Shown one piece after another: positions 9,754-64,000 of a DNA stretch of 64,000 bases; position 1 is the first letter of the stretch; every line of letters begins with the position of its first letter. A program made the position numbers and the translations under genes. Source of the DNA: Cavia porcellus. Lineage: Eukaryota > Chordata > Mammalia > Rodentia > Caviidae. The notes under the pieces are model-generated. The model saw only the letters and a list, made by a program, of their open reading frames with translations. It was not told the origin of the DNA and searched no databases. The stretch is taken from assembly GCF_034190915.1 (NCBI RefSeq), contig NW_026947491.1:22942101-23006100 (forward strand), read 5' to 3'.

Positions 9754-9842
9754 AATTTTTGTGGTGCCATGTGTCACCGTGGGGTTATTATAGCTGGGGT
9801 ACTTACTATATTCTCACAGTGACACAGCCCTTCTCTAAAACT
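9754..9842 (+). other. IGHD: IGHD segment A1 (family 1, 33 bp) with both RSS
   Basis: The D coding segment is 9,782-9,814. Left signal: nonamer AATTTTTGT (9,754-9,762), 12-bp spacer, heptamer CACCGTG (9,775-9,781). Right signal: heptamer CACAGTG (9,815-9,821), 12-bp spacer, nonamer TCTAAAACT (9,834-9,842). Frame 2 reads GYYSWGTYYI. Frame 1 meets TAG at codon 4. Frame 3 is hydrophobic (VIIAGVLTIF). This is the usual D pattern of one Tyr/Gly/Ser frame, one hydrophobic frame and one stopped frame. Both heptamers keep the three bases next to the coding end, so it is probably usable. Its closest relative is D1 at 59,771-59,803. The start and end are set by the heptamers. Confidence 0.93.
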
Positions 9843-11395
9843 CCACCCTGAATCACATAAGGCCTGGGACTGCTGAGCTGCTGCGAGTAGTACAAGAGGG
9901 GCCCACACTGGTTACCCACATGCAAATCCACTAGCACTGACCTGAGATGCCTTCACAGGGTGATGTGCAGAGATCTCGCAGGAACACCTTATGTCATGGT
10001 AGAAAAGAGGAAGCTGGAGGCTCCCAGAGCCCAGCCAGGAAGCTGTCTGAGTCAACCTGAGAACCAGAGAAGAAGAAATAGCTGCTCCCCCTCCCAGTGC
10101 ACAAAAAGGGACACTGTAGGCTGGTATCAGAGGGAGAGGAGCCAAGGATTTTGATCATGGGAGGACGAGTACACCAACTTCCCAAGGTTTTGTGTCTATA
10201 ACAGGAGCTTTAAAACTGGCACAGAAATGGCTTACAGAAGAATCAGTACACCCGGTTGAGAAGACAGATTTGGAGGAGGGGTCAAACATGTGGAACAGAG
10301 AAGTAGACAGAGGAGTCATACACAGTGGCGTCACTGTACCGCAGGGACCATGGCCACAGGACAAGGCACAAGGGGCAAGTTCAGTTTCTGAGCTGTGGTT
10401 GGGACAGCACACTGCTTCACTAATGTCCTTGAGATCCTTGTGAGCAAAGCAATAAACAGCACATATGTTATCACATGAGACAGTGCAGAGAATTTATTTC
10501 AACATTACATCAAAGGAGTAAAAAAAAACTGGGTCAAAAAACCCAGTATCAATAAAGTCTCTTTATCTTGAAAGCAGATCAGGTAGAACCAATTCTTCCT
10601 GTGAAGGAGATCGTTTTCCTGTGGGAAAACTACAAAGAAACCCAAGACAAGAATGAGCATCAGTCTCAGCACCCTGCCTCCAGAGTGGTGACTCCCAGGA
10701 GGGCCAGCATGCAGCCGTTAGTGCAGGTAGTTACACGTGGGAGATCGCAGATGAGCGCTGGAGAGAGGCAGGGCCTGGCACTGTGCCTAGAGGAGTACTG
10801 CACATGGTGCATCACAGCCCCCATGTGAACAGGATGAGCAGACACAAGGCACAGATTCTGTGTGGGTTCAGAGACTACCGTGGAGCACAGGAAAGGAAGC
10901 CTTCTTGGATGTGGGCGAATTCAGCTGGATGTAGAGGAGAAGGACCCTGAGGCCATGGTGCAGGGACATAGTCAGTGACAGGCAGTGCGACAGAGGCTGT
11001 ATCTCCTCTCATGCCCCATGTGGCTCAAGGGCCACCATCAGGATCCTGGGTCCTACGTCAGTGGGCACAGGACTGACTAACAGGCCTTCCCAGCTCTGCT
11101 TTCCTGAGTAGAGAGCCTAGGAGGTCAAAGGCCTCAGAGTGACTCATCTACTGTGTGGGGACAGTTCTCAACCTGAAAGTTTGACCAGGGCACTTGGATC
11201 CAAAAGCAATACCACCTGCAGTGGATCCCAGGACACTGCTGCACAAGCATGAGGCTAACTACGGGAAGAATCTGTCCAGAGCAACCTTCAGCCTTACAGA
11301 ACATACCCAGGGTCCCTACCAAGCACTCCTCTTGGCCTGTCCTGCTCTCCAGGAGCTTGGCAGCCCCTGGCCCTTGCTCACCTGCATTCTACAGT
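9843..11395. other. Unit A spacer between families 1 and 2
   Basis: No gene is seen. The stretch is paralogous to 59,832-61,372 and, more loosely, to 29,293-30,858. An A-run at about 10,522 matches the much longer A-run at 29,980 in unit B. A run of paired heptamer-like strings near 10,320-10,350 lacks nonamers. Confidence 0.55.
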
Positions 11396-11468
11396 GAGAT
11401 TTATCATGGTCTGTGTCACTGTGGTAAGTGTGATGGATACCACAGCCTCACAGCACCCATCGAAACCC
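11396..11468 (+). other. IGHD: IGHD segment A2 (family 2, short 17-bp form)
   Basis: The D is GTAAGTGTGATGGATAC (11,424-11,440). Left signal: nonamer GAGATTTAT (11,396-11,404), 12-bp spacer, consensus heptamer CACTGTG (11,417-11,423). Right signal: CACAGCC (11,441-11,447), 12-bp spacer, TCGAAACCC (11,460-11,468). The right heptamer keeps CAC but loses the GTG end, so D-to-J joining may be inefficient. Frame 3 reads KCDGY with one cysteine, frame 1 reads VSVMD and frame 2 starts with a stop. It pairs with D2 (61,401-61,417) and, as a diverged internal duplicate, with A4 (14,086-14,129). Confidence 0.85.
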
Positions 11469-11987
11469 AGGTCCCCGGCCCCACCATCCTGCCTCACAGA
11501 GCAGTGCTGAACACACACCCAGACTTCAAAGAGGGCCTTAAAAGGGGGTGGTAGTTACACATCCAGCAGTGATTACTCAACTAGCAGATAGCAGGACAAA
11601 GTCAGAGCCCCACTCCTGGCCTCCCAGACTATACCAGGCATGGCTGTCCATCTTAGGGCCTCATGAAGAGAAAAGACAAAGTCTCCGCAAAGGCAGTTAG
11701 AGTTCTCTGCCCAGGTAACCAGGCCCCATGACCCTCTCAGATGAGACCCACACCAGGGCAGCAGCTCCACAAGCCCCACCTTCAGCTTCATCAGCATACA
11801 GGGTTCTCAGTTGGGTCAGTTGGTGACTCCCATCTAAAACAGTGCCTGCAAGAGCAACCTGAGCAGAAGGCTACCCTGCCCTTGCTCTGTCCCTATGGGT
11901 ACAGTCTGCCACCTGTAGGACAATGCTCCACAAGCCAAGTCTGTACCCCACCTTACACCCACACTGTTTATTATCATACTTCACACA

Positions 11988-12031
<44 letters not shown>

Positions 12032-12627
12032 ACATCATGAAAAGCCCCTCTACTATCCATCAAATGCTATGCCCTATATCTAGCTTGTACCCCAAGTCTG
12101 GTTTTGAGAACTTGTCTCAGTTGCCTTGGTGGACAGAAGAGGTGAGTTGACAAACAGGTGGTCATTGAGGGTCACTCAGTAAGGATCCCATCCCAGTCAT
12201 CCCTGTCAATCACTTGCTTTCTTGAGCTCTTTCTGGGAGACATCAAACCTGGGATTTACCAAATCTGAGTTGTCTTTCAGCACAAACAGGTCTGTGGGTC
12301 TTATCATCCTTGATCCTCTCCATAGCAGCAGGTGCAAGGGGCTTAAATCTGAAAGACAATGCCTTCTACCCACTCTTGCTATCATCCATGGCACTGCTTT
12401 CCATTTCTAGCACAGTTATCTGGGGATCCCAGAAGTAATACCTGTGTGGTCCCTGGGGGCAGGCTCGTGTCCTACCACTTAGCCTTGCCACATTCAGAGG
12501 ACATCTCTGAGGGTCTTACCTGTGTAGACACAAACCAGGATGCTGTGCTAGATCCCTCTCCTTTTTATTGGAACTCATAGAAGGTTGAGGGTTTGATGCT
12601 CTAAGACTTGGATTGGGCATCAGCAGG
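11469..12627. other. Unit A spacer between families 2 and 3
   Basis: Non-coding DNA paralogous to 61,446-62,558 and 30,960-32,077. It contains a CA dinucleotide run. Its first part is also similar to 14,140-14,560 of the same unit, which reveals an internal duplication. Confidence 0.55.
11982..12034. repeat. (CA)n microsatellite
   Basis: About 25 CA dinucleotides with one G interruption near the left end. The paralogous place in unit D (about 61,945-61,965) has only a few copies ('ACCACACATGCACACCACA'), so the run expanded in unit A or collapsed in D. Confidence 0.95.
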
Positions 12628-12699
12628 GCTTTTTGTGAAGGGCTCCCCCACTGTGGTACTACTGGAACTACCACACTGATGCATCCAGCAGCAAAAACC
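12628..12699 (+). other. IGHD: IGHD segment A3 (family 3, 16 bp), strong RSS
   Basis: The D is GTACTACTGGAACTAC (12,656-12,671). Left signal: nonamer GCTTTTTGT (12,628-12,636), 12-bp spacer, consensus heptamer CACTGTG (12,649-12,655). Right signal: CACACTG (12,672-12,678), 12-bp spacer, nonamer GCAAAAACC (12,691-12,699). Both nonamers match the consensus at eight of nine places. Frame 2 reads YYWNY. The right heptamer keeps CAC, so I expect it to rearrange. The orthologous copy in unit D (62,587-62,602) differs at only a few bases. The unit B copy (32,103-32,117) is degraded. Confidence 0.94.
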
Positions 12700-14057
12700 T
12701 CTGGCCACAGGGTGCTTAGGCTTTACACTCTGAGATTCCAGGAGGAGCCAGGGTCTGAGATTTTGCCTTTCTCCAAATATTGGGTTCAGTCCACACACAG
12801 CACTTTCCCTACCAACAACTCCAAAGGGCTCAGAGACAGCCACATGATCCCTAATACTGCAGGGTCTCTGCCACAGCAGCCTGTTGCTCAGCGTCCACAG
12901 GTAACAGCAGTACCCAACCTGCCTATTCACCCTTGGCCATCTCTGCTTGAATTGGGGTGGGAAGCTCCCCCAAACCCAGGATGACTTCTGGGCCTGATCT
13001 CAGGCAGCTGCACTCATCCACAAGAAACTCTCTCCTGAGCCTTTCTCTCCTGACACCTGCAAGGCAATGGTGCCTTCTTTGAAACCAAACCCTACTCAAG
13101 AGGGTCCTGTAGGCCACTTAGATCACAAGCAGCCCCTCTTGGAAACTGTATGGGAGCTTAAGGGGGCTGAGCTCACCAGTGAGAGAGATACCAGAGTTCA
13201 TGGAGACAGGAGCCACTCCCAGCCTGCTGTTGACCCCAAGGAAAGCAGGTCCCTTTCCTGGCCTGGCATGGGCCTCCTGACCTTCAGTGTTCCAAGAAGC
13301 CTCTCTGTTGATCCAACTTCTAGGACCACATAGGTTATTGTCAGGGCTCATCGGACTATGGTTGTTCTATGAAGAGCGTGATGAAGATTTCATGATAACA
13401 CAGACAATAATGCTGCTCAAGCAGCAATAGGGGCAGCAATGCAGCACCCTGTATGTACCAGCTCCTGGGGCCTCTGAGGCCATGGTGTGGCCTCTGGCCC
13501 TGTCTGTACAGCTGCACAATGCAGGCTAGGTTCTCACAGGTGTACTGCTGGCTGGGTGGACATGCCATTGACTTGCCAAGCAGCAGCTCTGAGCTTCTCT
13601 AGTGCCTCAGATAGCCCATGTGTCACCAGGACCCTGTTTACTTAGGATTACAGGACTAACACATGATCACCCCACTATTCATCAAATGCTGTGCCCTATA
13701 TCTGGCATGTACTCCAAGGCAGTGGGACAGCGACTGTGTCTCCAGGCATTCCAGGATTGGCTTTTTTGGGTAGATAGCCTAGCAGGTCAAAGCCCCTAGA
13801 GTGACTCATCCACTGTGTGGGGACAGTTCTCAATCTGAAAGGATGGCCCAGGACACCTGGTTCCAAATGCAACACCACCTGGGTGGATCCAGGCCACTGT
13901 TGCACACGTATGAGACTACCAGCAGAAAAAAGCTATCCAGGGCACCCCACACTCTCACAGAGTGCACCTAAGCACTCCCCCAAGCACTCTTCTTGGCCAG
14001 TCCTGCTCTCAAAGTGTTTTTGGCCCCCAAGAGCCCTGCCAACCTGCATACTAGAGT
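12700..14057. other. Unit A spacer between family 3 and the second family 2 D
   Basis: Non-coding DNA closely matched by 62,631-63,983. A nonamer-like GGTTATTGT at 13,333 lies 12 bases before GACTATG, but nothing to its right resembles an RSS. From about 13,610 the sequence re-enters the region also seen at 12,040 and then 11,110, marking the start of the internal duplicate. Confidence 0.55.
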
Positions 14058-14157
14058 GGAATTTGGTAGGATCTGTGTCAGTGTGGTATGAGCGTTATGG
14101 ACAGGGCTGCCTTACCACAGCAGGAATACCACAACCTCACAGCACCCATCCAAACCC
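14058..14157 (+). other. IGHD: IGHD segment A4 (family 2, long 44-bp form)
   Basis: The D is 14,086-14,129. Left signal: nonamer GGAATTTGG (14,058-14,066), 12-bp spacer, heptamer CAGTGTG (14,079-14,085). Right signal: CACAACC (14,130-14,136), 12-bp spacer, TCCAAACCC (14,149-14,157). Compared with the 17-bp form in A2 it has about 27 extra bases, including an internal CACAGCA at 14,116-14,122. That string looks like a heptamer but has no nonamer 12 bases on. Frame 2 reads YERYGQGCLTTAGI, frame 3 is also open, and frame 1 stops at codon 2. The imperfect heptamers make efficient use doubtful. Confidence 0.78.
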
Positions 14158-15854: not shown

Positions 15855-17048
15855 TTTTTATTAAGAGGAAAAAGAGAAAAACACAAAACAAAACAAAGCG
15901 GTGTAAGGGTACACGTAATACAGAACTACAAAAAAAAAAAAAAAAAACAAAAACAAAAACATAACAGTAAGAAATCACCTGTTAGTAGATTACATATTAT
16001 CATCTTGAAAATAGTTGCTCAAATCACAGTATCAAAGAATACAAGGTGGACATTCAAACAGGGAGACTGCAAACAGCTGTGTTCAATGATCCAAAAACAT
16101 TGATATAGTCAGCTATTTAACACCCCTAAACACACTTGCTGTTATATCTGTTAGAGCTCTTTTTCTTTTTTCTTTTTTTACCCTCTCTTTTTTACAACAA
16201 AATTTACACATTTTGGATTTTATTACTCCTTAGTGCTTATAACTTTTTTTGGGGGGGGGAGAGAATACAGTCAAATATGGCAAAACAAAGCTGTCAGTCA
16301 AAACCAAGGACAGACATAGCACATGGTGTAGAACAGAGTACAAGGTTATCAACAATGGTTATCAACGTTGTCTCTTGTTTCCTTAAAAAGAATTGTCTAT
16401 CTCATTAGATATTATAAAGTTGGACAAAACAATGGAGAACAAGACCAATAAAACTTAGGCATTGTAAACATTACAGGACTTCCAAAGAAGACAATAGTCA
16501 AACCAGAATGGGTATCTTAGTGAATCTTATTGCCTTCAAAGTAGTTGCCTATGTCTTCAAACTTGATACTATCATATAGAATGGAACAGAGTCTAATCAG
16601 TCAAAACAAGATCATGGGAGTATTACAGGACTTCAAAACAAGTTAATAGGAAATCAAAAAGTGTTACTATTTATATATCCTAATTTTTTAAATTTTTTCT
16701 TTAATTAAGACAAACATAAGAAATGACTAAATAATTTTTTTAAAAGAATAAGGGGGAGATTGAGATAAAACAGGACATAACAATATAACAATAGAGGTCA
16801 AAGCATGACTGTTTCAGCAACCTAGTACTTCACCACCATATAACCCGAGTTAATAGTAGTTACCATAGTGTCTGTCTTTTCCTTGAAATATTTGGATAAA
16901 ACTTCATATACTCTAGCTTCAAATATTTCCATATCAAGAAGCCCAGATTAAAGTCTTTCTAATTAATGAGTGAAACCTTTATAAGGCTTCAAGGCCCCCT
17001 AATGGGGAATCATGATTACCACATATTTTTATATATTTGAATCATTAC
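15855..17048 (-). mobile_element. 3'UTR of the full-length L1
   Basis: This non-coding tail is similar in inverse orientation to 6,688-7,743. It contains an A-rich run at about 15,931-15,948 and a G-run at about 16,250 on the plus strand. The open frames here are not conserved with the other L1 copies. Confidence 0.85.
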
Positions 17049-20000
17049 TTACATTAGGGAAACTATTCGGTATTCACACATGCGAGATTGATTTATTTCA
17101 CTTATGAGTATGGTCTCAAGCTGTGCCCATTTATTGATAAATATCTCAATGTGATCCTTCTTTATAGCTGAATAATACTCCATTGTATAGAAATACCACA
17201 ACTTTTTTATCCATTCCTCAGTTGATGGACACTTGGGTTGTTTCCAAGATCTGGCGATTACAAATTGTGCTGCTATAAACATAGGTGCACATATATCACT
17301 GTGGTATGATGCTTTCAGTTCTTCTGGGAATATGCCTAGAAGTGGAATAGCTGGAATAAATGGGATTTCCAGTCCCAACTTTTTGAGAAATCTCCAGACA
17401 GATCTCCACAAAGGCTGTACCAGTCTACACTCCCACCAGCAGTGCAGGAGAGTTCCTTTTTCCCCACAGCCTCTCCAGCATTTGTTGTTGTTGGTTTTCT
17501 TGATCCTGGCCATTCTTTCAGGAGTGAGATGGTATCTCAGTGTGGTTTTAATTTGCATTTCTCTAATGACCAATGATGATGAGCATTTTTTCATGTATTT
17601 ATTTGCCATTTGCATTTCTTCATCTGAGAATTGTGTATTCATCTCAGATGCCCATTTTTGGATTGGATCTTTGAATTTTGGGTGTCTGAGTTTCTTTAAT
17701 TCTTTATATGTTTTAGACAAGAGGCCCTTGTCTGAGAGAGAGTTCACTAAAATCTTTTCCCAGTTTGTGGGTTTTCTTTTTACCATGCTGGAGATTTGTT
17801 TTGAAATGCAGAAACTTTTTAATAAGAAGTGGTCCCAGGTATTGATTCTGGGAAGTATTTCCTGTGCGGTTTGAGTCCTGTTCATGAATTCTTTACCTAC
17901 TCCTATGTCTCCAAGGTTTCTACCTAATTTGCCTTCCAATAGATTTAGTGTTTCTGTTTTAATATTCAGATCTTTGACCCATTTAGATTTTAATTTAGTA
18001 CATGGTGATAGGCATGGGTCTAGCTTTAGTTTTTGGCAAATGGGGAGCCAGTTTTTCCAGCGCCGTTTATTAAAGAGACTGTCATTCTTCCAGTGAACCT
18101 GCTTGGCTCCTTTATCAAAGATAAGGTGGTTGAGTGTGTTTGTAGTTGTGGTTGTATCTTCTAATCTATTCCACTGATCTTCGGCTCTGTTTTGATTCCA
18201 ATACCATGTTGATTTTACTACTGTTGCTTTGTAGTATAACTTCAAGTCAGGGATTGTGATGCCTCCTGCTTTGTCTTTGCTGCTTAGAATTGCCTTTGCG
18301 ATTCTAGGTCTCTTCTGGTTCCAGATGAAATTTAGGAGTGATTTCTCTAGATCTATAAGGTATGTTGATGATATTTCTATTGGGATTGCATTGAATCTGT
18401 ATAACAGTTTTGGGAGAATGGCCATCTTCACAATGTTTGTTCTTCCTATCCATGAGCAAGGGATGTCTTTCCATTTTCTGAGATCATCTTCAATTTCCTT
18501 TTTCAGTGTATTATAATTTTTACTGTATAAGTCTTTCACTTCTTTCGTAAGAGTAATTCCTAAATATTTCATTTTTTTGCTTGCTAATGTGAATAGTCCA
18601 GTTTCTCTTATTTCCCTCTCTGTAATTTTGTTGTTCGTGTATAGGAATGCTATTGATTTCTTAGTATTGATTTTGTCTCCAGCCACATTACTGAATTTAT
18701 TTATTGTATCTAAGAGTCTTTCAATGGAGGTTAGGGGGTCTTCTATGTAGAGTATCATGTCATCTGCAAACAATGATAATTTAACTTCTTCTTTTCCTAT
18801 CTTTACCCCTTTTATTTCTCTTTCTTGCCTAATTGCTCTGGCTAGTACTTCCAGTACTATATTAAATAGGAGTGGTGATAAAGGACATCCTTGTCTTGTG
18901 CCCGATTTTAAAGTAAAGGCTTTCAATTTTTGGCCATTCAGTATGATGCTGGCTGTTGGTTTGTCATAAATGGCCTTTATTATATTGAGGTAAAGACCAT
19001 TTATTCCAATTTTCTGTAAAGTTCTTATCATGAATAAGTGTTGGACCTTATTGAAGGCTTTTTCTGCATCTATAGAAATGATCATGTGATGCTTATTTTT
19101 GGCTTTATTGATATGGTGGATTACATTTATTGATTTGCGTATGCTGAACCATCCTTGCATTCCTGGGATGAATCCCACTTGGTCATGGTGTATAATCTTC
19201 TTGATGATTTGCTGGATCCTATTTGCCAATATTTTATTGAGGATTTTTGCATTTGTGTTCATTAGGGAGATCGGTCTATAGTTCTCTTTTATAGTTGGGT
19301 CTTTCTCAGGTTTTGGTACTAGAGTAATATTTGCTTCCAGGAATGAATTAGGAAGGATTGCTTCCCTTTCAATTTCATTGAATAGTTTGAGGAGTGTCGG
19401 CATTAGGTCTGCTTTATATTTCTTGTAGAATTCTGCAGTGAATCCATCTGGGCATGGGCTCTTCTTGGGGGGTAAGGACTTAATTACATTTTCAATTTCA
19501 TTAGCAGAGATTGGATTATTCAACAGTTTTATATCCTCTTGATCTAGCTTTGGTACTTCATATGCTTCTAAGAATCTGTCTATTTCTTCTGTGTTATCAT
19601 ACTTTTGAGAGAAGAGGTTTTCGAAATAGGTGTTGATGATCCTCTGTATTTCTATTGCGTCTGTAGTGATTTTTCCTTTTTAATTTCTTATTGCATGAAT
19701 TTGAGCTTTTTCTTCCCTTTTTTTCATAAGGTTGGCTAGGGGCTTATCGATTTTATTTATTCTTTCAAAGAACCAACTCTTTGATTCGTTGATTCTTTGG
19801 ATTGTTTTCTTAGTCTCTATTGCATTGATTTCTGCTCTGGTTTTTATAATTTCCTCTCTTCTTTTGGCTTTGGGCTTGACTTGCTCTTCTTTTTCTAGCT
19901 GTTTGAGGTGTAGCATCAAGTTATTTATTTGTATTCGTTCTGTTTTCCTGATGTGGGAACTCAGTGCAATAAATTTTCCTCTCAGAACAGCTTTCATTGC

Positions 20001-20889
20001 ATCCCACAGATTCCGGTAAGTTGTATCTGCATTTTCATTTTCTTTTAGGTATTGTTTAATTTCTTCTTTAATTTCTTCTGTGACCCACTGATTACTCAAG
20101 AGTGTTTTATTCAGTTTCCATGTGTTTGTGGAATTTTTGCAGTATCTTTTATCATTAATTTCTAATTTCAGAGCGCTATGATCCAATAATATGCAAGGGA
20201 TGATTTCAACTCTTTTGCATTTGCTTAAATATGTTCTGTGAGCTAATATATGGTCTATTTTAGAAAATGATCCATGTACTGCTGAGAAGAATGTGTATTC
20301 TGATGTTGTTGGGTGGAACATTCTGTATATGTCTATCAAACCCATTTGTTCACAGGTGTGATTCAGTTCTGTTATTTCTTTGCTCATTTTCTGTCTGGTT
20401 GATCTGTCCCTTGGTGTCAGTGGTGTATTAAGGTCTCCTGTTACAATTGTGTTACTGATAATTTGAGTTTTCATTTCTGTTAATAATTGTTTTATATAAC
20501 TGGGTGCTCTGGAGTTTGGTGCATATATATTTAAGATAGTTATCTCTTCCTCTTGGAGTTTTCCCCTTACGAGTATGTAGTGACCTTCTTTGTCCTTTAT
20601 GGTCATTTTTGGTTTAAAGTTCATGTTGTCTGCAAACAGAATGGCTACTCCTGCCTTTTTTTTGGATTCCTGCTGCATGAAGAATTGTTTTCCATCCTTT
20701 GACTTTCAGTCCGTGAGTATCCTTCTGGGTTAGATGGGTTTCCTGTAAACAGCATATGGTTGGATTTTGTTTCTTGATCCATTCTGCTAGTCTGTTTCTT
20801 TTGATTGGTGCATTGAGACCATTTACATTAATGGTTATTACTGTTAAATGCTGGTTTATTGTTGACATGTTATCTGTCTGCTGTTGCAT
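17049..20889 (-). pseudogene. L1 ORF2 (endonuclease-reverse transcriptase), one frameshift and one stop
   Basis: ORF2p nicks target DNA and copies L1 RNA at the nick. The span of about 1,280 codons is the normal length. The endonuclease starts at 20,889 minus-strand and has 'ITINVNGLNAPIKRNRLAEW' and 'CCLQETHLTQKDTH'. The frame breaks at the A8 run (20,656-20,663 on +) and continues as '[16 protein letters not shown]'. A stop TAA at 19,680-19,682 follows 'KAQIHAIRN'. The same frame then reads on as '[12 protein letters not shown]' and stays open to 17,049. The RT catalytic box FADDMILY is at about 18,750-18,771, and the C-terminal Cys/His segment is present. As written the protein would be truncated. 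Confidence 0.93.
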
Positions 20890-20912
20890 CTTTATCTTTC
20901 TGTTCTGTTTAA

Positions 20913-29196: not shown

Positions 29197-29292
29197 AATT
29201 TTTGTGCTGGACTGTGTCACTGTGAGGATATTATAGATATATGTGGGGTGGACCTTACTATACCCACATTGACACAGCCCTACTCCAAAAGC
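29197..29292 (+). other. IGHD: IGHD segment B1 (family 1, 40 bp)
   Basis: The D is 29,225-29,264. Left signal: nonamer AATTTTTGT (29,197-29,205), 12-bp spacer, consensus CACTGTG (29,218-29,224). Right signal: CACATTG (29,265-29,271), 12-bp spacer, TCCAAAAGC (29,284-29,292). Frame 2 reads GYYRYMWGGPYYT; frame 1 has TAG at codon 4; frame 3 is open and has a Cys. At 40 bp it is longer than the longest human IGHD (37 bp). It shares the GYY start with A1 and D1, so the extra length is in the middle. The signals look usable. Confidence 0.92.
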
Positions 29293-30858: not shown

Positions 30859-30959
30859 GGAATTTGGCAGGGTCTGTGTTGCTGTGGTATGAATGTGATT
30901 GCATATGGCTGCTTTACCACAGCAGGAATGCCACAGTGTCATAGCACCCATTCAAACCT
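30859..30959 (+). other. IGHD: IGHD segment B2 (family 2, long 45-bp form)
   Basis: The D is 30,887-30,931. Left signal: nonamer GGAATTTGG (30,859-30,867), 12-bp spacer, heptamer TGCTGTG (30,880-30,886). Right signal: consensus CACAGTG (30,932-30,938), 12-bp spacer, TTCAAACCT (30,951-30,959). The GTG next to the coding end is kept on the left and the right heptamer is perfect, so D-to-J joining is plausible. Frame 2 reads YECDCIWLLYHSRN with two cysteines; frame 3 reads MNVIAYGCFTTAGM; frame 1 stops at codon 2. Two Cys in the D could form a CDR-H3 disulphide. It shares the internal CACAGCA string with A4. Confidence 0.85.
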
Positions 30960-34262: not shown

Positions 34263-34337
34263 CCATATTGTCAGGGTTTCTGTTACTGTGTATATGGGGT
34301 AGCAGCTGCCACAGTGATATACACTCTGCTGAAAACG
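34263..34337 (+). other. IGHD: IGHD segment B4 (family 4, 19 bp)
   Basis: The D is TATATGGGGTAGCAGCTGC (34,291-34,309). Left signal: CCATATTGT (34,263-34,271), 12-bp spacer, TACTGTG (34,284-34,290). Right signal: consensus CACAGTG (34,310-34,316), 12-bp spacer, CTGAAAACG (34,329-34,337). Frame 2 reads IWGSSC; frame 1 has TAG at codon 4. Its 'GTAGCAGCTG' core resembles the human IGHD6 family, which is inference only. The nonamers are mediocre but the coding-flank bases are intact, so it may be used at a low rate. Its sister is C4 at 46,487-46,505. Confidence 0.85.
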
Positions 34338-35213: not shown

Positions 35214-35286
35214 GGTTTTTGCTGATGTCTGTGTTTCTACTGACTGGGGTAGGTGACACACAGTGATACCCAGTCAGTCAGAAACT
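35214..35286 (+). pseudogene. IGHD: IGHD segment B5 (family 5, 17 bp), left heptamer destroyed
   Basis: The D-equivalent is GACTGGGGTAGGTGACA (35,242-35,258). The left nonamer GGTTTTTGC (35,214-35,222) and 12-bp spacer are good, but the heptamer place reads TTCTACT (35,235-35,241) instead of the CACTGTG found in C5, losing the essential GTG. Right signal: consensus CACAGTG (35,259-35,265), 12-bp spacer, TCAGAAACT (35,278-35,286). It could still join to J, but V-to-DJ joining would lack a usable left signal. Frame 2 reads TGVGD; frame 1 ends in TGA. Confidence 0.82.
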
Positions 35287-35559: not shown

Positions 35560-35645
35560 GGAATTTGTGTGGGCCTGACACACAGTGGATCATATACAGT
35601 AGTTGGTACTATAGTCTCGCAGTGATGCAGGCCAAGCATAAAACT
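35560..35645 (+). other. IGHD: IGHD segment B6 (family 6, 30 bp), right heptamer CGCAGTG
   Basis: The D is 35,588-35,617. Left signal: GGAATTTGT (35,560-35,568), 12-bp spacer, CACAGTG (35,581-35,587). Right signal: CGCAGTG (35,618-35,624), 12-bp spacer, CATAAAACT (35,637-35,645). Frame 2 reads IIYSSWYYS; frame 1 contains TAG. The first three bases of the right heptamer should be CAC; the CGC here is expected to impair cleavage strongly, so D-to-J joining is doubtful. Sister C6 has an intact CAC. The loss may be a CpG-related change (CAC to CGC) and is probably inactivating. Confidence 0.82.
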
Positions 35646-35723: not shown

Positions 35724-35796
35724 AAATTCTGCATATCTCCCAGTCACAGTGCCTATGTTGGTAGCTAATGCAGTGAAAGAGGTCCGATCCAAAACT
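35724..35796 (+). pseudogene. IGHD: IGHD segment B7 (family 7, 17 bp), weak on both sides
   Basis: The D is CCTATGTTGGTAGCTAA (35,752-35,768). Left: heptamer CACAGTG (35,745-35,751), with a poor nonamer AAATTCTGC 12 bases upstream. Right: TGCAGTG (35,769-35,775), 12-bp spacer, TCCAAAACT (35,788-35,796). The right heptamer lost CAC and the Tyr-rich frame (YVGS) runs into TAA at the end. I expect no or little use. Sister C7 is intact. Confidence 0.75.
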
Positions 35797-45667: not shown

Positions 45668-45748
45668 AATTTTTGTGCTGGCCTGTGTCACTGTGAGATT
45701 ATTATGGCTACGATTATACCCACAGTGACAGGGACCCACTCCAAAAGC
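45668..45748 (+). other. IGHD: IGHD segment C1 (family 1, 25 bp), strong RSS
   Basis: The D is 45,696-45,720. Left signal: AATTTTTGT (45,668-45,676), 12-bp spacer, consensus CACTGTG (45,689-45,695). Right signal: consensus CACAGTG (45,721-45,727), 12-bp spacer, TCCAAAAGC (45,740-45,748). Frame 2 reads DYYGYDYT, a classic Tyr/Gly D frame. Frame 1 reads RLLWLRLY and frame 3 IIMATIIP, so all three frames are open. Both heptamers are perfect. It should be one of the best-used segments here. Confidence 0.95.
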
Positions 45749-46458: not shown

Positions 46459-46533
46459 CCATATTGTCAGGGCTTCTGTCACTGTGTGTATGGTATAGCA
46501 ACTACCACCGTGGTGTGCACTGTGCTCAAAACA
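46459..46533 (+). other. IGHD: IGHD segment C4 (family 4, 19 bp)
   Basis: The D is TGTATGGTATAGCAACTAC (46,487-46,505). Left signal: CCATATTGT (46,459-46,467), 12-bp spacer, consensus CACTGTG (46,480-46,486). Right signal: CACCGTG (46,506-46,512), 12-bp spacer, CTCAAAACA (46,525-46,533). Frame 2 reads VWYSNY and frame 3 YGIATT; frame 1 has TAG. The 'GTATAGCA' core is like human IGHD6, by inference. The essential bases of both heptamers are kept, so it is probably functional. Confidence 0.91.
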
Positions 46534-47345: not shown

Positions 47346-47419
47346 GGTTTTTGTTGCAGTCTGTGTCACTGTGTATTGGGGTAGCTGGAACCACAGTGAT
47401 ACCTAGTCAGACAGAAACC
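47346..47419 (+). other. IGHD: IGHD segment C5 (family 5, 18 bp), near-consensus RSS
   Basis: The D is TATTGGGGTAGCTGGAAC (47,374-47,391). Left signal: perfect nonamer GGTTTTTGT (47,346-47,354), 12-bp spacer, perfect heptamer CACTGTG (47,367-47,373). Right signal: perfect CACAGTG (47,392-47,398), 12-bp spacer, ACAGAAACC (47,411-47,419), one mismatch from consensus. Frame 1 reads YWGSWN, frame 2 IGVAG, frame 3 has TAG. This is the strongest D signal pair in the window and the key evidence that the locus is IGHD. Confidence 0.96.
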
Positions 47420-47678: not shown

Positions 47679-47761
47679 GGAATTTGTGCAGGCCTGAGAC
47701 ACAGTGGTTATTATAGTGGTAGTGGATGGGTCTCACTGTGACACAGGTCACACATAAAACT
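47679..47761 (+). other. IGHD: IGHD segment C6 (family 6, 27 bp)
   Basis: The D is 47,707-47,733. Left signal: GGAATTTGT (47,679-47,687), 12-bp spacer, CACAGTG (47,700-47,706). Right signal: CACTGTG (47,734-47,740), 12-bp spacer, CATAAAACT (47,753-47,761). Frame 3 reads YYSGSGWV, frame 1 VIIVVVDGS, and frame 2 has stops. Each heptamer differs from its side's consensus only at the central base pair, and the three coding-flank bases are intact on both sides. It is probably functional. Sister B6 has a damaged right heptamer. Confidence 0.92.
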
Positions 47762-47849: not shown

Positions 47850-47922
47850 AGATTCTGCATAGCTCCAGTTCACAGTGGGTATGGTGGTTACTACCACAGT
47901 GAGAGAGGTCAGGTGCAAAACA
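47850..47922 (+). other. IGHD: IGHD segment C7 (family 7, 17 bp)
   Basis: The D is GGTATGGTGGTTACTAC (47,878-47,894). Left signal: CACAGTG (47,871-47,877) with a weak nonamer AGATTCTGC 12 bases upstream. Right signal: consensus CACAGTG (47,895-47,901), 12-bp spacer, TGCAAAACA (47,914-47,922). Frame 3 reads YGGYY, frame 1 GMVVT, frame 2 VWWLL; all are open. D-to-J joining should work; V-to-DJ joining depends on the weak left nonamer. Confidence 0.87.
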
Positions 47923-52200: not shown

Positions 52201-54770
52201 TGTTAATGGTATTTTGATTGGGATTGCATTAAATCTGTATAACGGATTTGGGAGTATGGCCATTTTCACAGTGTTGGCTTTTTCTAACCAAGAGCAAGGG
52301 ATATCCTTCCATTTTCTAATATCTTCTTCAATTTCCTTTTTTAGCATACCATAATTTTCAGTATGTAGGTATTTTCAGTCTTGGTTAGGTTGATTCCTGA
52401 GCATTTCATTTTTTTAGGTGCTATTGTGAAAGGCGCTGTTTCCATAATTTCTCTCTCAGTGAAGTTTTTGTTTGTGTACAGAATACTATTGATTTTTGAG
52501 TGGTGACTTTGTATCTAGCTTCACTGATGAATTTGTTACCTCTAGTAGTCTTTTAATGGAGTTTTTTGGGTCTTCTATATAGAGGATCATGTCATCTGCA
52601 AATAGTGATAAAGTAACTTCTTTTGTCTTTATTTCTTTCTCTTGTCTGATTGCCCTGGCTAATCTTTCCAGAACTATACTGAATAGGAGTGTTGGTAGTG
52701 GACATCTTTGTCTTGTTTCTGATTTTAGAGTGAAAGCTTTCAGGTTTTGTTCACTCATTGTAATGTTGGCTGTTGGTTTGTCATAGATGGCCTTAATGAA
52801 ATTGAGGTAGACACCATGTATTCCAAGTTTTTGAAGGGTATCTTTAATATTGAAAAAGTGTTGGACTTCATCAAGAGCTTTTTCTATGTGTATTGAGAGG
52901 TCCGTGTGGTTTTTGTTTTTGGCTCTGTTGATGTGGTATATGTCATTTATTGATCTGCATATGTTAAACCATGCCTGCATTCCTGGAATGAATCCCATTT
53001 GGTCGTGATGTATAATATTCTTGATGATTTGCTGCCTTCTATCTGCCAGTATTTTATTGAGAATCTTTGCATTAATGTTCATTAGTGTGATTGGCCTATA
53101 GTTCTACTTTTTGGGTGGATCATTCTCTGGTTTTGGTATCATTGTAATACTTGCCTCCAGGAATGACTGAGGGAGGATTGCTTCTCTTCCAATTTCATCG
53201 AATAGTTTAAGGAGTGTTGGAGTCAACTCTTTTTTAAATTCCTTGTAGAATTCAGCTGTGAATCCATCAGGACCTGGGCTTTTCTTTGTTGGTAAGTTTT
53301 TAGTTATATTTTTAATTTCAGTAGCTGATATTGTGTTATTCAAAATTGCTGTGTCTTCTTAATTGAGCTTTGGTAGTTCATATGTTTCTAGAAATCTGTC
53401 CATTTCCTCTTTGTTTTTCACCCTATGTGAGAGAGATTTTCATAGTAAGTATTCATGATCTTTTGAATTTCCATGGGATCTGTAATAATTTCTCTCTTTT
53501 CAGTCTGATGTGCGACTTGCTTTTTAAATTCCTTTTTCTTGATAAAGTTGTCTAAGGTTTATCAATTTTGTTCATTCTCTCAAAATGCAGCTCTTTGATT
53601 CATTAATTGTTTGTATTGTTTTTAATTTCAGTTTCATTGATTTCTGCTCTGATCTTTATGATTTCCTCTCCTATATGAGCTTTGGGTTTGACTCAGTCTT
53701 CCTTTTCTAGGAGCTTGAGATGTAGCATCAGGATGCGTATTTGTGCTTGCTCCACTTTCTTGATGTGACAATTTATTTTCCTCTTAGGATTGCTTTCACT
53801 GCATCCCACAGGTTACGGTATGTTGTATCTGTATTTTCATTGAATTGTAGGTGTTATTTCTTCTTTAATTTTACCTGTAGCCCACTGGTTGTTCAGAAGG
53901 TTGATTAATTTCCATGAATTTATGCCAGTTTTCTAATTTCTTTTGCCATTAATTTCCAATTTCAGTGTGCTGTGGTCAGATATTATGGGATAATTATCAT
54001 GGGAAAATTTCAATCCCTTTGCATACTTAAGAATGTTTTATAGGTTAATATATGGCCTATTTTGGAGAATGTGTCACGTGAAGCCGAGAAGAATGTATAA
54101 TTTGATGTGGTTGGGTGGAACACTCTAAACATCTACTAAGTCCATTTGCTCACAGGTATGATTCAGTTCTATTACTTCTTTGTTGACTTTTTCTCTAGTT
54201 GATCTATCTCTTTGTGACAGTGGGATACAAAGGTCTCCTATTGCAATTATATTCTTGTGTATTTGATTTTTCATGTACATTAGTATACATCCTATATAGT
54301 TGGATGCTCTTGTATTTGGTTCACCTATATTTATAATTGTTAGTTCTTCCTCTTCAAGTATTCCACTAACAAGTATGTAGTGACCTTCTTTTTCTCGTGT
54401 AATCATTTTAGGTTTGATGTTCACTTTGTCTGCAAGAAGAATAGATATCCCTGCTTTTTTCTCGGTTCCTGTTGCATGGAATACTGTTTTCCATAATTTG
54501 ACTTTTAATGTATGAGTTTCCTTTTGAGTCAGATGTGTTTCGTATATACAACATATTGTGAGATCATGTTTCTTGATCCATTCTGTCAACCTTTTTCGTT
54601 TGATAGATGAATTGAGGCCGTTTACATTTATGGATAGCACTGAGATGTACTGCCTTGTTATATTTCTGTAGTCTGTTTTCCCCCTTGTTTAATTGTTTGT
54701 CCTGCCTGTTAGTGTCTTTCTTCTGTTGTTCTGGAGATTATGATCATTTTCATGTCTATTTTGTATGTTT
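49216..54770 (-). pseudogene. Degenerate L1 block, minus strand (paralogue of 1-5,020)
   Basis: From left to right it has an ORF2 3'-end fragment with a SINE, 3'UTR pieces (about 49,800-50,150 and 50,560-50,905) separated by another ORF2 3' fragment (50,165-50,530), then degenerate ORF2 (50,930-54,640). ORF2 pieces include '[16 protein letters not shown]' (53,104-53,343), the RT core with '[13 protein letters not shown]' (52,486-53,082), '[19 protein letters not shown]' (52,081-52,347) and the endonuclease start 'LSINVNGLNSSIKRKRL' (54,125-54,640). It is slightly better preserved than the copy at 1-5,020. Confidence 0.9.
49268..49410 (-). mobile_element. ID-like tRNA-derived SINE
   Basis: Same family as at 24.6 kb, minus strand: on + it reads a T-rich tail, then 'GGTACTGGAGTTCAAACTC' and 'GCTGAGCTAAATCCCC'. 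The body is about 49,281-49,396. The target-site duplication is 'TAATTATGGTCTC' / 'CGATTACGGTCTC'. The paralogous site at about 44-56 is empty ('CGATTATGGTCTC'). Confidence 0.9.
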
Positions 54771-54889
54771 TTCAATAGTTTTTCTAGTGTTGGTTTGGTT
54801 CGCATTAATTCCTTCAGTTGTTCTTTGTCATGAAAGTACCTAGTTTCTCCATTAAATTTGAAGGAAGTTTTGCTGGGTACATCCGTCTG

Positions 54890-55795: not shown

Positions 55796-55797
55796 AA
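55739..55797. repeat. (CT)n then (TG)n microsatellite
   Basis: About 24 CT units followed by four TG units. It is at the same place as the (GT)n run at 41,982. Confidence 0.95.
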
Positions 55798-56618: not shown

Positions 56619-59600
56619 TCTAAAAAACTGATCATATTCTGTGCTACTAAATGCTTCTCTAACACTTTCCTGCAAGGATCTGGGGATGTGACCAGGCTCT
56701 CTCTGTGACATACCTTGGATGTACTCTCATGGGGACAGTCTCCTGCAGAGTGAGACAGGAGTTCTGATCAGCTTGATTAAGAGATTCCTGAAGAGGTGCA
56801 TTGGTAGAGAGGTGTTAACTTCATAATTATTCACCACCTGATGAGATCCCAGATGAAGGAGGTCTCAGGAATTGCTTGTGGCTGCAGGAAGTGGGTCACT
56901 GGAGCTGCTACTCCCTGCTACAAGAGCAAAACCAGACCCTCCATCCCAAGCTTGAAGCAATGTGCTCTTACCTGCCATCCAAGAGGTAGTACCTCCTGAA
57001 GCCAAGCTCTGTGGAAGTCTGCCTACAGGATCTCCAACCACAACACAAAATAGCATGCCTGCAGCAATATTCTACCATTCTGTGGTTCTGACCAGCTGAC
57101 TGCTCCCACAGGCTATCTCATGTTCCAGTGGTCTCTTGTGACATAGCTGTTGGCTACCTGGGGTTTTCCTTTCTATCAGTAAAACTTAAAACAGCCTCAA
57201 GAAGAAAAGAGAAGCATAACTGAAACAAATTTCACCACAACATTCATTACCATTATCAGGTAATCAATCACCCTCACCATACTGTGGATGATATGGTCTC
57301 CTTTTTTACATCTTGGACTTCATGTAAAAGCATCATCACTGGTGCTAGAAAAGTAAGCTATATTCAGAGCAAGGGACACAAATGCACATAAGGAGAATCT
57401 TTGTAGGCTGTAACTCCTCACAGCTCAGGGAGACCCAGGAGCATGAAAACTGAAATTTCAGTGATAGAGAGGAAAATACTTACATTTGCTGAGGTCCAGT
57501 CTCCAAACATCTGAGGATCATGTGATTCTGTCTAGGAAGACAGGACTGACATTGCACCAACCCAGAGAAGGGACATTCCACCAGTCTGGGATGGACCACA
57601 GAGGGGCCTGTGTGAACCAGGCTTCATGTCAAAACATAAAGTTTGAAACTGGGTCACAACTGTAAAGCTCATTTATATTTCACCACTATCAAACCATAGA
57701 AGCAAATAATTAGTGCACGAAAATGTTAATGGACTATGGAAAGGATGCTGTTAGGATCAAAATATCTGTCATAAGCTGATGAGGAAAATGCAGATTTGCC
57801 CAAAATGGGCAAGTTTGGTCCACAGCTCCTGGTGCCATGGCTCCTCAGAGTGCCACTCTCATGGCACTGGAAGCAAGCTCAGGCTGAGAAGATGGGGATC
57901 TCTTTTGGTGACTCCAATCACTCAGAAGAGGTTTGGAGAGAGGAACTGGGAGGGCTGTATCTGTGGAAACAGAGCACTGCCTTGTGATAAACGTGAACAG
58001 ATACAGATTCAACTGAATGTAGCTGCCAGTCTCCAGGCCATGCGCGCCTCAGGATACCGAGGCTGTGCTGCTGGCTGCAGCTACCCTCTATGCCAGCTCT
58101 GTCCACATCAACTGGCGAGGCCTCAGCTGTGAGTTCATTTTTCACCCTTCCCAGAGGGCGAAGTTTCATAAATTCAGGACTCTCCTGACACACTGCAAAG
58201 ACAGGGCCTGTGCTCCCCATCTTTGTGTCCCCAGTCTCCAGGGAAGACAGACTTCCAGCATCCATACCAACCTGTCCAGATACTGCTAGCCTGGTCTATA
58301 GACACTGAGCAGCCCTGGGAATTATTCACCAGCTTGACTCTGCAGACCTTCATGTCTTCACTCTCTCAGCCCCCTATGAGCAGATTCTGAAAATAAATGT
58401 TTCCAAAACCTGAACTGAAGTCTTTGGAAACCTCTCTCCCAGGGCCAGAATTAATGGTTTCAAACAAGTGCTCCTGTGGCTGGCATCATGGGAGAAGCAA
58501 GAGACACACACTCTGTTTTGCCTTGTGTCTAGATGATGCCCCACAGAGTCATGCATTCACAGGTGTGGCTTTTTTAGGTGGCTGAATCTAGAAAATGTGA
58601 TTGACTCATGGTGCAATGCTAAGATTCTGCGTTTTAAGATTAAGGGTGGGTGATTGTTATGTCAGCCCACTGTTTGGTTTAGCATCAACCTAATCCTGGT
58701 AGCCTGGATACAATATAGGGACAGAAAAGCGTTTACCTCTTGCTTTCTTTGCTACTTTCTGCTCACCATGTACTCTTTCTCCACAGTGATGCCAGACTGT
58801 CCTGCCACCTTGCCTTGGAGGCTGCCAGTTTTGTACTCAAAGAACTACAAATTGTGAGCTAATTAACCCTTTATTGATTTTAACTCTTGTGTCAGGTACT
58901 TTGCCTCAGCAAGAAGAAAAGTAGCTAAAGCCTGCCCTGTGACTCGCCAGGCATTTATCGGGTCCTCCTCTAACAGAACAGATTCTACCAGGTCAGTAGA
59001 TTCTCAGGCTAGCCACCTGAGAAAGGCACTGGCCAGCAACAGGTTGGTGGCCAACCTGGACAGGAAGAAGGAATGATGGCCAAGTCCAAGCAGGCAGCAC
59101 TGCCAGCCCCTCAAATTAGTGCCAAGCGTGACCTCCTTTACTCCATGAGATGGAGACCCAGACCAGAGCCTTCTGTTTCCTCCTCACCTCTCTAGTCAAA
59201 TCCTGGGCTCTCAGGACATATGTGGGATACAGATGAGCTGGTTCTCAGGAAATCCACAGGTTGTTCCAGGGGTGGACCCCAAGTCATGTGTCCTCATACT
59301 GGGTCAGGTGAAAGGTTACTGTGTCCCTCAGGCCAGTAGAAGGAAGAAAACAAACATTGTGTCCCAGGGGCAGCTACCCAATGTCAGGTTGTGGGAAAGT
59401 TCAATGATCTAAATGCAAGACCAGCAACTACCAGGATCAAGACCAGCTGAGGTTGAGAACAGACGGACTCACGCCAGAGAAATATCTCACACATGCCTGA
59501 GAAAATCTCCATTCAGAATCCCTGAAAATCCAGGACACCAGACATTGGAAGGAGAGGTCATTGCCAAACTCCTTCCTGACACAGAAGTGGACCTGGGCTC

Positions 59601-59742
59601 TCCTAGGGGGAAGAGAGAACTCTTTAGAGTTCTGACTCAAAATGACAACATCTCATCCAGAAACACAGCAGAAACACAGCATGCCCATTGCAAAGCTAGT
59701 CATGAGCAAGCACAGTAGGCACAGGGTTACCAGTAGGGGTAG

Positions 59743-59831
59743 AATTTTTGTGGTGCCATGTGTCACCGTGGGGTTATTATAGCTCGGATGGTTACTATAG
59801 TCTCACAGTGACACAGCCCCTCTCTAAAACT
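59743..59831 (+). other. IGHD: IGHD segment D1 (family 1, 33 bp)
   Basis: The D is 59,771-59,803. Left signal: AATTTTTGT (59,743-59,751), 12-bp spacer, CACCGTG (59,764-59,770). Right signal: consensus CACAGTG (59,804-59,810), 12-bp spacer, TCTAAAACT (59,823-59,831). Frame 2 reads GYYSSDGYYS, frame 3 VIIARMVTIV, frame 1 has TAG. The RSS bases are identical to those of A1, but the coding middle differs, giving different CDR-H3 residues. Probably functional. Confidence 0.93.
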
Positions 59832-61372
59832 CCACCCTGACCCACATCACCCTTGGGACTAAGGAGCTGCTGGCAGCAGTACATGTGGGGCCCACACTGG
59901 TTACCCACATGCAAATCCACCAGCAGTGACCTGAGATGCCTTCACAGGGTGATGTGCAGGGATTTTGCAGGAAACCTTATGTCATGGTAGAAAAGAGGAA
60001 GCTGGAGACTCCCAGAATCCAGAGTCCAGCCAGGAAGCTGTCTGAGTCAACCTGAGAACCAGAGAAGAAGAAATAGCTGCTCTCCCTCGCAGTGCACAGA
60101 AAGGGACAATGTAGCCTGCTATGAGAGGGAGAGGAGCCTAGGATTTGGATCATGGGAGGGCGGGTACATCAACTTCCAAAGTTTTGTGTCTATAACAGGA
60201 GCTTTAAAACTTGCACAGAAATGGCTCACAGAAGAATCAGTACACTGGGTTGAGAAGACAGATTTGGAGGAGGGGTCAACCATGTGGAACAGAGAAGTAG
60301 ACAGAGGAGTCATACACAAAGGCAAGGTCACTGTACCACAGGGACCATGGCCACAGGACAAGGCACAAGGGGCAAGTTGAGGTTCTGAGCTGTAGCTGGG
60401 ACAGCACACTCAGCCCAGTAATGTCCTTGGGATCCTTGTGAACAAAACGTAAACAGCACATATGTTATCACATGAGACAATGCAGAGAATTTATTTCAAC
60501 ATTACATCAAAGAGTAAAAAAAAAAGTGGGTCAAAAAACCCACTATCACTACAGTGTCTTTAACTTGAAAGCAGAACAGGCAGAACCAACCCTTCCTGTG
60601 AAGGAGAACGTTCCCCTGTGGGAAAACTACAAAGAAACCCAACACAAAGATGAGCATCAGTCTCAGCACCATGGCTCCAGAGGAGTGGTTCCCATGAGGG
60701 CGTGCATCGTGCCACGTGGAAGATTGCAAATGAGCCCTGGAGAGAGGCAGGGCCTGGCACTGTGCCTAGAGGAGCACTGTACATGGTGCATCACAGCCCC
60801 ATGTGAACAGGCTGGGCAGACACAAGGCACAGATTCTGTGTGGGTTCAGAGACTGCCATGGGGCACAGGAATGGAACATTTATGGAAGTGGGCGAATTCA
60901 GTTCGATGTAGAGGAGAAGGACCCTGAGGCGGTGGTGCAGGGACAGAGCAGTGACAGGCAGTGGGACAGAGGCTGCATCTCCTTTCATGTCCTATGTGGC
61001 TCAAGGGCCACCATCAGGATCCTGCATCCTAGATCAGTGGGCACAGAACTGACTCCCAGGCCTTCCCAGCTCTGTTTTCCTGAGTAGACAGCCTAGGAAG
61101 TCAAAGGCCCCAGAGTGACTCATCTACTGTATGGGTATAGTTCTCAACCTGAAAGTTTGACCAGGGCACCTGGATCCAAATGCAATACCACCTGCAGTGG
61201 ATCCCAGGACACTGCTGCACAAGCATGAAGCTACCTTCATGCAGAAACTGTCCAGAGCAACCGTCACCCTTACAGAGCACAGCCAGGGTCCCCACCAAGC
61301 ACTCTTCTTGGCCAATCCTGCTCTTCAGGAGCTTTGCAGCACCCTGGCCCTTGCTCACCTGCATTCTAGAGT
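59832..61372. other. Unit D spacer between families 1 and 2
   Basis: Close paralogue of 9,843-11,395. No gene is seen. Confidence 0.55.
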
Positions 61373-61445
61373 GAGATTTGTCAGGGTGTGTGTCACTGTG
61401 TTAAGTTTGATGGATATCACAGCCTCACAGCACTCATTCAAACCC
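61373..61445 (+). other. IGHD: IGHD segment D2 (family 2, short 17-bp form)
   Basis: The D is TTAAGTTTGATGGATAT (61,401-61,417). Left signal: GAGATTTGT (61,373-61,381), 12-bp spacer, consensus CACTGTG (61,394-61,400). Right signal: CACAGCC (61,418-61,424), 12-bp spacer, TTCAAACCC (61,437-61,445). Frame 3 reads KFDGY (A2 has KCDGY), frame 1 LSLMD, frame 2 starts with a stop. The right heptamer keeps CAC only, so usage may be low. Confidence 0.86.
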
Positions 61446-62558
61446 AGGTCCTACCATCCTGTCTCACAGAGCAGTGCTGATTTCACAGCCAGGCTTCAAA
61501 GAGGGCTTTAAAATGGGGTGGTCATTACACAACCAGCAGTGATTATGCAACTAGCAGACAGCAGGACAAAATCAGGGCCTCACTCATGGCCTCCTACACT
61601 ATACCAGGTATGCCTGTTCTTCTGAGGGGCTCATGAAGAGAAAGGACAAAGTCTCCCCAAAGGCAGTTAGAGCTCTCTGCCCAGGAAACCAAGCCCCATG
61701 TCCCTCTCAGATGAGACCCACACCAGGCCAGCCGCTCCACAAGCCCCACCTTCAGCTTCATCAGCATACAGGTTTCTCAGCTGGGTCAGTTGGTGACTCC
61801 AATCTTGGACAGTATCTGCAAGAGCAACCTGAGCAGAAGGCTGCCCTGCCCTTGCTCTACCCCTATGGGTACAGTCTGCCCCCTGCAGGACAATGCTCCA
61901 CAGCCAAGTCTGTACCCCACCTTAGCCCCACATTGTCCATAATCATACCACACATGCACACCACATGATCAAAAGCCCACTCTACTATCCATCAAATGCT
62001 ATGCCCTATATCTAGCATGTACCACAAGTCTGGGTTTGAGAACCTGTCTCAGCTGCCTTGGCGGGCAGAAGAGGTTAGGTGACAAGCAGGTGGTCATTCA
62101 GGGTCACTCAGTAAGGGTCCCATCCCAGTCATCCCTGACAATCACTTGCTCTTGGGGCTCTTTTTGTGAGACATCAAGCCTGGAATTTACCAAATCTGAG
62201 TTGTCTTTCAGCACCCACAGTTCTGTGGGTCTTATCATCCTTGATCCTCTCCAGGGCAGCCCCTGGAAGGGGCTCAAATCTGAAAGACAAAGCCTTCTAC
62301 CCACGCTTGCTACCATCGCTTGCACTGGTTTTCCATTTCTAGCACAGTTCTCTGGGGATCCCAGCAGTAACACATGTGTGGTCCCTGGGGGCAGGCTCGT
62401 GTCCTACCACTTAGCCTTGCCATATGCAGAGGACATCTCTGAGGGTGTTACATTTGTAGGCACAAACCAGAATGCTGTGCTAGATTCCTCTTCTTTTTAT
62501 TGTAACTCATAAAAGTTGAGGGCTTGATGCTCTAAGACTTGGATTGGGCATCAGCTGG
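61446..62558. other. Unit D spacer between families 2 and 3
   Basis: Close paralogue of 11,469-12,627, with the CA run nearly absent. No gene is seen. Confidence 0.55.
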
Positions 62559-62630
62559 GCTTTTTGTGAAGGGCTCCCCCACTGTGGTACTACGATGACT
62601 ACCACACTGATGCATCCAGCAGCAAAAACC
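62559..62630 (+). other. IGHD: IGHD segment D3 (family 3, 16 bp), strong RSS
   Basis: The D is GTACTACGATGACTAC (62,587-62,602). Left signal: GCTTTTTGT (62,559-62,567), 12-bp spacer, consensus CACTGTG (62,580-62,586). Right signal: CACACTG (62,603-62,609), 12-bp spacer, GCAAAAACC (62,622-62,630). Frame 2 reads YYDDY, where A3 has YYWNY. The signals and spacers are the same as in A3, with substitutions only in the D core. Probably functional. Confidence 0.95.
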
Positions 62631-63983
62631 TCCCGGCACCCGTTGCTTAAGCTTCACACTCTGAGATTCCAGGAGGAGCCAGGGTCAGAGACTTTGCCTT
62701 TCTCCAAATATTGGGTTCAGTCCACACACAGCATTCTCCCTACCATGGACTCCAAAGGGCTCAGAGAGAGCCACATGATCCCTAATACTGCAGGGTTTCT
62801 GCCACAGAAGCCTGTTGCTCAGAGCCCAAAGGTAACAGCACTACCCAACCTGTCTATTCATCCTTGGCCCCTCTCTGCTGGAATTGGGGTGGGCAGCTCC
62901 CCTAAACCCAGGATGACTCTCTGGGCCAGAGCTCACGCAGCTCCACTCATCCACAAGGAACTCTCTCCTGAGCCTTCCTCGCTGACACCTGCAAGGCAAT
63001 GGTGCCTTCATTGAAACCAAACCCTACTCAAGAGGGTCCTGTAGGCCACTTAGATCACAAGCAGCCCCTCTTGGAAACTGTATGGGAGCTTGAGTGGGCT
63101 GACTCACCCAGTGAGAGAGATAGCAGAGTTGATGGAGACGGGATCATCTCTCAGCCTGCTGTTGACCCCAAGGAAAGCAGGTCCCTTTCCTGGCCTGGCA
63201 TGGGCCTCCTGACCTTCAGTGTTCCAAGAAGCCTCTCTGTTGATCCATCTTCCAGGACCACATAGGTTATTGTCAGGGCTCATCAGACTATGATTGTTCT
63301 ATGAAGAGGTAGATGAAGATTTATTGATAACACAAACAATAATGCCACTCAAGCAGCAACAAGGGCCAGCAATGCAGTACCCTGTACGTACCAGCTCCTG
63401 AGGCCATGGTCTGGCCTCTGGCCCTGTCTGTACAGCTGCACAATGCAGGCTAGGTTCATCCAGGTGTACTGCTGGCTGTGTGGACATTTGTCTGACTGGA
63501 CAAGGAGCAGCTCTGAGCTTCTCTAGTGCCTCAGATAGCACATGTGTCACCAGGACCCTGTTTCCTTAGGATTCCAGGCCTAACACACAATCACTCCACT
63601 ATATATCAAATGGTATGCCCTATATCTGGCATGTACCCCAAGGCAGTGGGACAGAGACTGTGTCTCCAGGCCTTCCCAGATTGGCTTTGTTGGGTAGATA
63701 GCCTAGCAGGTTAAATGCCCTAAAGTGACTCATCCACTGTGTGGGGACAGTTCTCAATCTGAAAGGATGGCCCAGGACCCCTGGTTCCAAATGTAGTACC
63801 ACCTGAGGTGAATCCAGGACACTGTTGCACAAGCATGAGGCTACCTGCAGAAAGAAGCTGTCCAGAGCACCCCTCACTCTCACAGAGTGCACCCAAGGAC
63901 TCCACCAAGCACTCTTCTTGGCCAGTGTTGCTCTAAAAGAATTTTTCGGCCCGCAGGATCCCTGCCACCCTGCATGCTAGAGT
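62631..63983. other. Unit D spacer leading to a second family 2 D
   Basis: Close paralogue of 12,700-14,057. No gene is seen. Confidence 0.55.
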
Positions 63984-64000
63984 GCAATTTGGTAGGGTCT
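63984..64000 (+). other. IGHD: Left RSS of a family 2 IGHD cut by the window end
   Basis: Nonamer-like GCAATTTGG (63,984-63,992) and the first eight spacer bases TAGGGTCT match the left signal of A4 (14,058-14,074). The heptamer and D lie beyond the window. By alignment with A4, a long-form D is expected within the next 60 bases. Confidence 0.7.

Follow-up and report, generated by a model that had tools for sequence, protein, structure and literature searches.

The stretch of DNA analysed here, referred to below as the window, is 64 kb long and contains 19 complete D-like elements and one cut element, located between positions 9754 and 64000. The layout of a D-like element is nonamer, spacer, heptamer, a core of 15-45 bases, heptamer, spacer and nonamer. 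The window was scanned for heptamer-nonamer pairs flanking a short core, with an RSS consensus, and was also searched by BLAST with 17 anchor elements taken together with flanks of 150 bases, followed by alignment within each family. Of the 19 complete elements, the plain scan for 12-bp spacers on both sides (12/12) catches 16; E2, F2 and G2 were absent from it and were detected through homology only. Upstream of position 9746 the plain scan lists no element in the window, and the hit at 9746 is itself a shifted reading of element A1. The count of 19 complete D segments plus one cut, given in the preliminary description of this DNA, was borne out by the BLAST search and the alignments.

The elements belong to seven homologous families, A to G, with four members in A, five in B (one of them cut by the window end), three in C and two in each of D, E, F and G, which makes 20. 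They are arranged in four unequal, colinear units with the orders A-B-C-B, A-B-C-D-E-F-G, A-D-E-F-G and A-B-C-B, the last being cut. The distances between successive A elements are 19.4, 16.5 and 14.1 kb. The state of each element was judged by a working rule, set after inspection of the element table, according to which a usable element has on both sides a spacer of 12, a heptamer that starts with CAC and matches at 6 or more of its 7 positions, and a nonamer that matches at 5 or more of 9. The coordinates below are those of the + strand reading.

The first unit starts with A1 (9754..9842, core 9782-9814, 33 bases), which looks usable. It is followed by B1 (11396..11468, core 11424-11440, 17 bases), with the weak 3' heptamer CACAGCC; by C1 (12628..12699), which looks usable and has an IGHD1-like core of 16 bases at 12656-12671; and by B1b (14058..14157, core 14086-14129, 44 bases), with the weak 3' heptamer CACAACC. 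The second unit begins with the usable-looking A2 (29197..29292), the core of which (29225-29264, 40 bases) is IGHD2-like. The 5' heptamer and the 3' nonamer are both weak in B2 (30859..30959, core 30887-30931, 45 bases). C2 (32078..32145, core 32103-32117, 15 bases) is damaged, lacking 3 bases that C1 and C4 have and so left with a 5' spacer of 9, and D2 (34263..34337, core 34291-34309, 19 bases) looks usable. The last three elements of this unit are damaged and were placed by homology to their counterparts in the third: E2 (35214..35286, core approximately 35243-35258, 16 bases), compared with E3, has lost its 5' heptamer, while the CAC of the 3' heptamer is changed in F2 (35560..35645, core 35588-35617, 30 bases; CGCAGTG; compared with F3) and in G2 (35724..35796, core 35752-35768, 17 bases; TGCAGTG; compared with G3).

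All five elements of the third unit look usable: A3 (45668..45748, core 45696-45720, 25 bases), D3 (46459..46533, core 46487-46505, 19 bases), E3 (47346..47419, core 47374-47391, 18 bases), which has the best RSS pair of the window, F3 (47679..47761, core 47707-47733, 27 bases), in which the 3' nonamer fits better at a spacer of 11, and G3 (47850..47922, core 47878-47894, 17 bases). In the fourth unit A4 (59743..59831, core 59771-59803, 33 bases) and C4 (62559..62630, core 62587-62602, 16 bases) look usable, and B4 (61373..61445, core 61401-61417, 17 bases) has the same weak 3' heptamer as B1, CACAGCC. The cut element (63984..64000), which retains its 5' nonamer and a piece of the adjoining spacer, is placed by homology alone as a B1b paralogue.

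Eleven complete elements out of 19 (A1-A4, C1, C4, D2, D3, E3, F3 and G3) pass this rule and look usable. The four of family B (B1, B1b, B2 and B4) are weak, failing on heptamer or nonamer strength, and another four (C2, E2, F2 and G2) are damaged, failing on one or both sides. To say that 12-bp-spacer RSS flank all the D segments therefore goes too far, given the weak elements of family B and the damaged ones. The cluster carries 12-RSS on both sides of its cores, but not every element does.

When spacer lengths of 8-25 were tried on each element, 12 gave the best nonamer, outright or jointly with another length, on 16 of the 19 5' sides and on 13 of the 19 3' sides (29 of 38 in total). The remaining 9 of 38 sides fit another spacer better: on the 5' side C2 (9), E2 (13) and G2 (14), and on the 3' side B2, F3 and B4 (11), C2 (11 or 22), F2 (11 or 13) and D3 (15). 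This per-element table is a better guide to the spacer than the loose pair scan, which gives 18 60-bp bins for each of the 11/11, 11/12, 12/11 and 12/12 layouts and cannot tell spacers of 11 and 12 apart, the nonamer being A-rich.

The cores are short (15-45 bases) and have Tyr/Gly-rich reading frames on the + strand, such as YYWNY, DYYGYDYT and YGGYY, as judged by eye; in some of them, one or two frames contain stops. Such cores are what IGHD segments would be expected to have. A 12-D-12 element has the same RSS layout on both strands, so the strand cannot be read from the RSS, and the 12/12 scan returns 31 hits on either strand. Comparison of the cores with a set of 27 D genes from human and mouse gives a higher score on + for 15 of 19, with sums of 82.5 (+) versus 3.0 (-). 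Against the same genes, C1, A2, D3, G3 and C4 (5 of 19) beat all 200 shuffles on +, the others being weaker. The A1, B1, B1b and F2 cores match better on -, and in 200 shuffles of A1 none reaches its - score. The earlier placement of all the segments on the + strand thus finds favour in 15 of the 19 cores, but is not visible in the RSS; from its cores, the cluster is likely to be in + orientation.

Self-comparison of the window matches 7744-14074 with 57740-64000 at 88%, and further colinear pieces, also among the matches listed, pair 43-790 with 49397-50149, 782-5021 with 50548-54778, and 5018-5596 with 57143-57752. As position 49397 lies about 1.5 kb past G3, the match at 43, which falls partly in an L1-like repeat, suggests that the cluster continues upstream of the window. 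A unit of about 14-19 kb, with the D order A-B-C-(second B)-D-E-F-G, was very probably duplicated repeatedly and unequally, with loss of pieces from single units.

The window also carries an inverted pair, 5599-6885 and 16852-18137, at 96% identity, closer than the 88% of the unit duplication. Its second copy overlaps the reading frame of a near-full L1 retrotransposon at 17049-21710 (- strand), which has Pfam domains for reverse transcriptase, for endonuclease and for L1 ORF1. Related L1 pieces lie elsewhere in the window, for example at 23622-24359 (+), with Pfam L1 domains. Positions 22267-22873 hold 2.3 copies of a 260-bp unit with 91% matches, and a short telomere-like CCCTAA repeat is found within the D cluster at 31105-31142. 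The only Rfam match of the window at the gathering score, SNORA2/SNORA34 at 32957-33093 (- strand, 127 bits), is possibly a retrocopy.

The rodent origin proposed in the preliminary description is supported, short of proof, by four SINEs, of which one is B1-like and three are ID-like. Twelve SINE consensus probes were used, and the eight from other mammal groups had no match in the window. The B1-like element lies at 27206-27286 (76.5%), and the ID-like elements at 24635, 49326 and 56538 (68-76%); the B2 probe matches one of the latter. The Alu probe matches the same place as B1, B1 scoring better. Since B1 and Alu have a common origin, the rodent assignment leans on the higher B1 score together with the ID matches.

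Nine pairs of paralogues were compared at their RSS, cores and flanks. The differing sites number 13 of 162 in nonamers, 18 of 126 in heptamers, 36 of 216 in spacers, 51 of 213 in cores and 1497 of 6358 in flanks, so that against the flanks the Fisher test gives 4e-7 for nonamers and 0.014 for heptamers. The heptamers of the B1b/B2 and E2/E3 pairs have diverged as much as the flanks or more. The idea that D cores generally change faster than their flanks is not borne out by the same pooled counts (Fisher 0.87). For the three pairs that come from the 88% duplication, the differing sites are 3 of 96 in heptamers plus nonamers, 4 of 72 in spacers, 12 of 66 in cores and 583 of 5985 in the background. 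The excess in the cores of these three youngest pairs is weak, with a Fisher value of 0.034 against the whole aligned background and 0.11 against a ring of ±200. The conservation of the RSS between paralogues, which may be read as a sign of constraint, is a firmer result than faster cores.

RSS-like matches could arise by chance and be spread by repeats, and the window is indeed largely duplicated, so that one chance match would be copied. At a score of at least 22, 12/12 pairs occupy 18 60-bp bins of the window, where one element can occupy more than one bin, while 200 scans with a shuffled consensus gave a mean of 0.33 bins (maximum 4) and 50 second-order Markov sequences a mean of 1.54 (maximum 5). 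At a score of at least 30, there are 8 bins in the window versus 0 in all runs of both controls. Furthermore, the seven families have no BLAST link between whole elements and yet each has the D-like layout, and the RSS are conserved above the flanks. A chance origin was rejected and is very improbable. T-cell receptor D segments also have cores between RSS, but in TRBD and TRDD the core lies between a 12-RSS and a 23-RSS. The 12/23 and 23/12 layouts occupy 6 and 9 bins, far below the 18 of 12/12, and 23/23 occupies 2. Among the lengths of 8-25 tried, a spacer of 23 gave the best nonamer on none of the 38 sides; the 3' RSS with 23-bp spacers, named beforehand as a finding that would speak against IGHD, are thus not seen as best fits. 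To our knowledge, some 20 D segments in seven families are unheard of for TRB or TRD. The T-cell receptor reading is rejected as strongly disfavoured, its probability being close to negligible.

The main rival is an orphon or a second IGHD copy outside the working IGH locus, in which the RSS would be recognisable but unused. No convincing match to VH, JH or Cmu was found in the 64 kb with six human protein probes (tblastn, best E 0.36 among the matches listed), and a scan of the window in six frames for the JH motif gave no match. In addition, 8 of the 19 elements are weak or damaged, and PMC13418733 reports a second IGH locus in bats. Against this, 11 elements look usable and the RSS are conserved relative to the flanks. 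Moreover, 64 kb of a D cluster need not include any V or J: for the DH region of the guinea pig, a length of 660 kb is given (PMC3382241). An orphon or second copy is accordingly considered unlikely, though less so than the two readings above.

The window is very probably an internal slice of a mammalian IGHD cluster, probably that of a non-murid rodent, built by repeated unequal duplication. The IGHD identity is supported by the 12/12 layout, the Tyr/Gly-rich + frames, the partial likeness of the cores to D genes of human and mouse, and the RSS conservation. The analysis shows the RSS pairs and that they exceed chance, the families with their units, and the conservation of the RSS; from the sequence we infer the use of the elements in recombination, their orientation and their place in the IGH locus, where they would lie between VH and JH as proposed in the preliminary description. 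The cluster most likely recombines like other IGHD clusters: under the 12/23 rule, V(D)J recombination joins D to JH and then VH to DJ. For the first joint, RAG1/2 in developing B cells would make its cuts at the 3' 12-RSS of a D segment and at the 23-RSS of a JH segment. A cut at the 5' 12-RSS of the D segment and at the 23-RSS of a VH segment would then join V to DJ.

Among the literature matches listed, nothing names this locus, and no IGHD annotation is found for the naked mole-rat or the other rodents searched for. The nearest described rodent case among them is the guinea pig (Cavia porcellus) IGHD region, for which PMC3382241 gives DH segments flanked by heptamers and nonamers with 12-bp spacers. 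By description, the two are alike in their 12-bp-spacer RSS, their many D segments and their rodent origin, which is probable for the window; 41 DH over 660 kb are reported there, compared with 20 elements in 54 kb here. The human IGHD locus, according to PMC11842051, contains a tandem repeat of four units with 23 of the 27 D genes, and D genes are born and die between units. The window resembles the human and great-ape loci in having D genes in tandem units with gain and loss between them, but its D families and unit content are different (PMC11842051). The same paper reports that in one human unit 5 of 6 D genes have a lower identity than the sequence around them, and that human and great-ape cores often diverge beyond their surroundings, whereas here this is seen only in the three youngest pairs and not in the nine pooled. 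It is conceivable, though rather doubtful, that the window belongs to a non-model rodent whose IGHD repertoire is undescribed and has modular units, the A-B-C-B and D-E-F-G blocks being gained and lost independently of each other. New duplicates would in that case retain their RSS, and their cores would diversify faster than the surroundings.

The earlier remark that standard gene finders will miss all these segments is fair for protein-gene finders, though dedicated tools exist: in PMC12090573 and PMC11842051, IgDetective is described, Digger is named and D genes are called hard to predict. No principle of V(D)J recombination is changed by this cluster, which is an ordinary kind of feature and a further case of IGHD units arising from duplication with loss of single D segments. 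The list of D segments of a species is needed for reading its antibody repertoire, and annotation tools have difficulty in finding D genes (PMC11842051).
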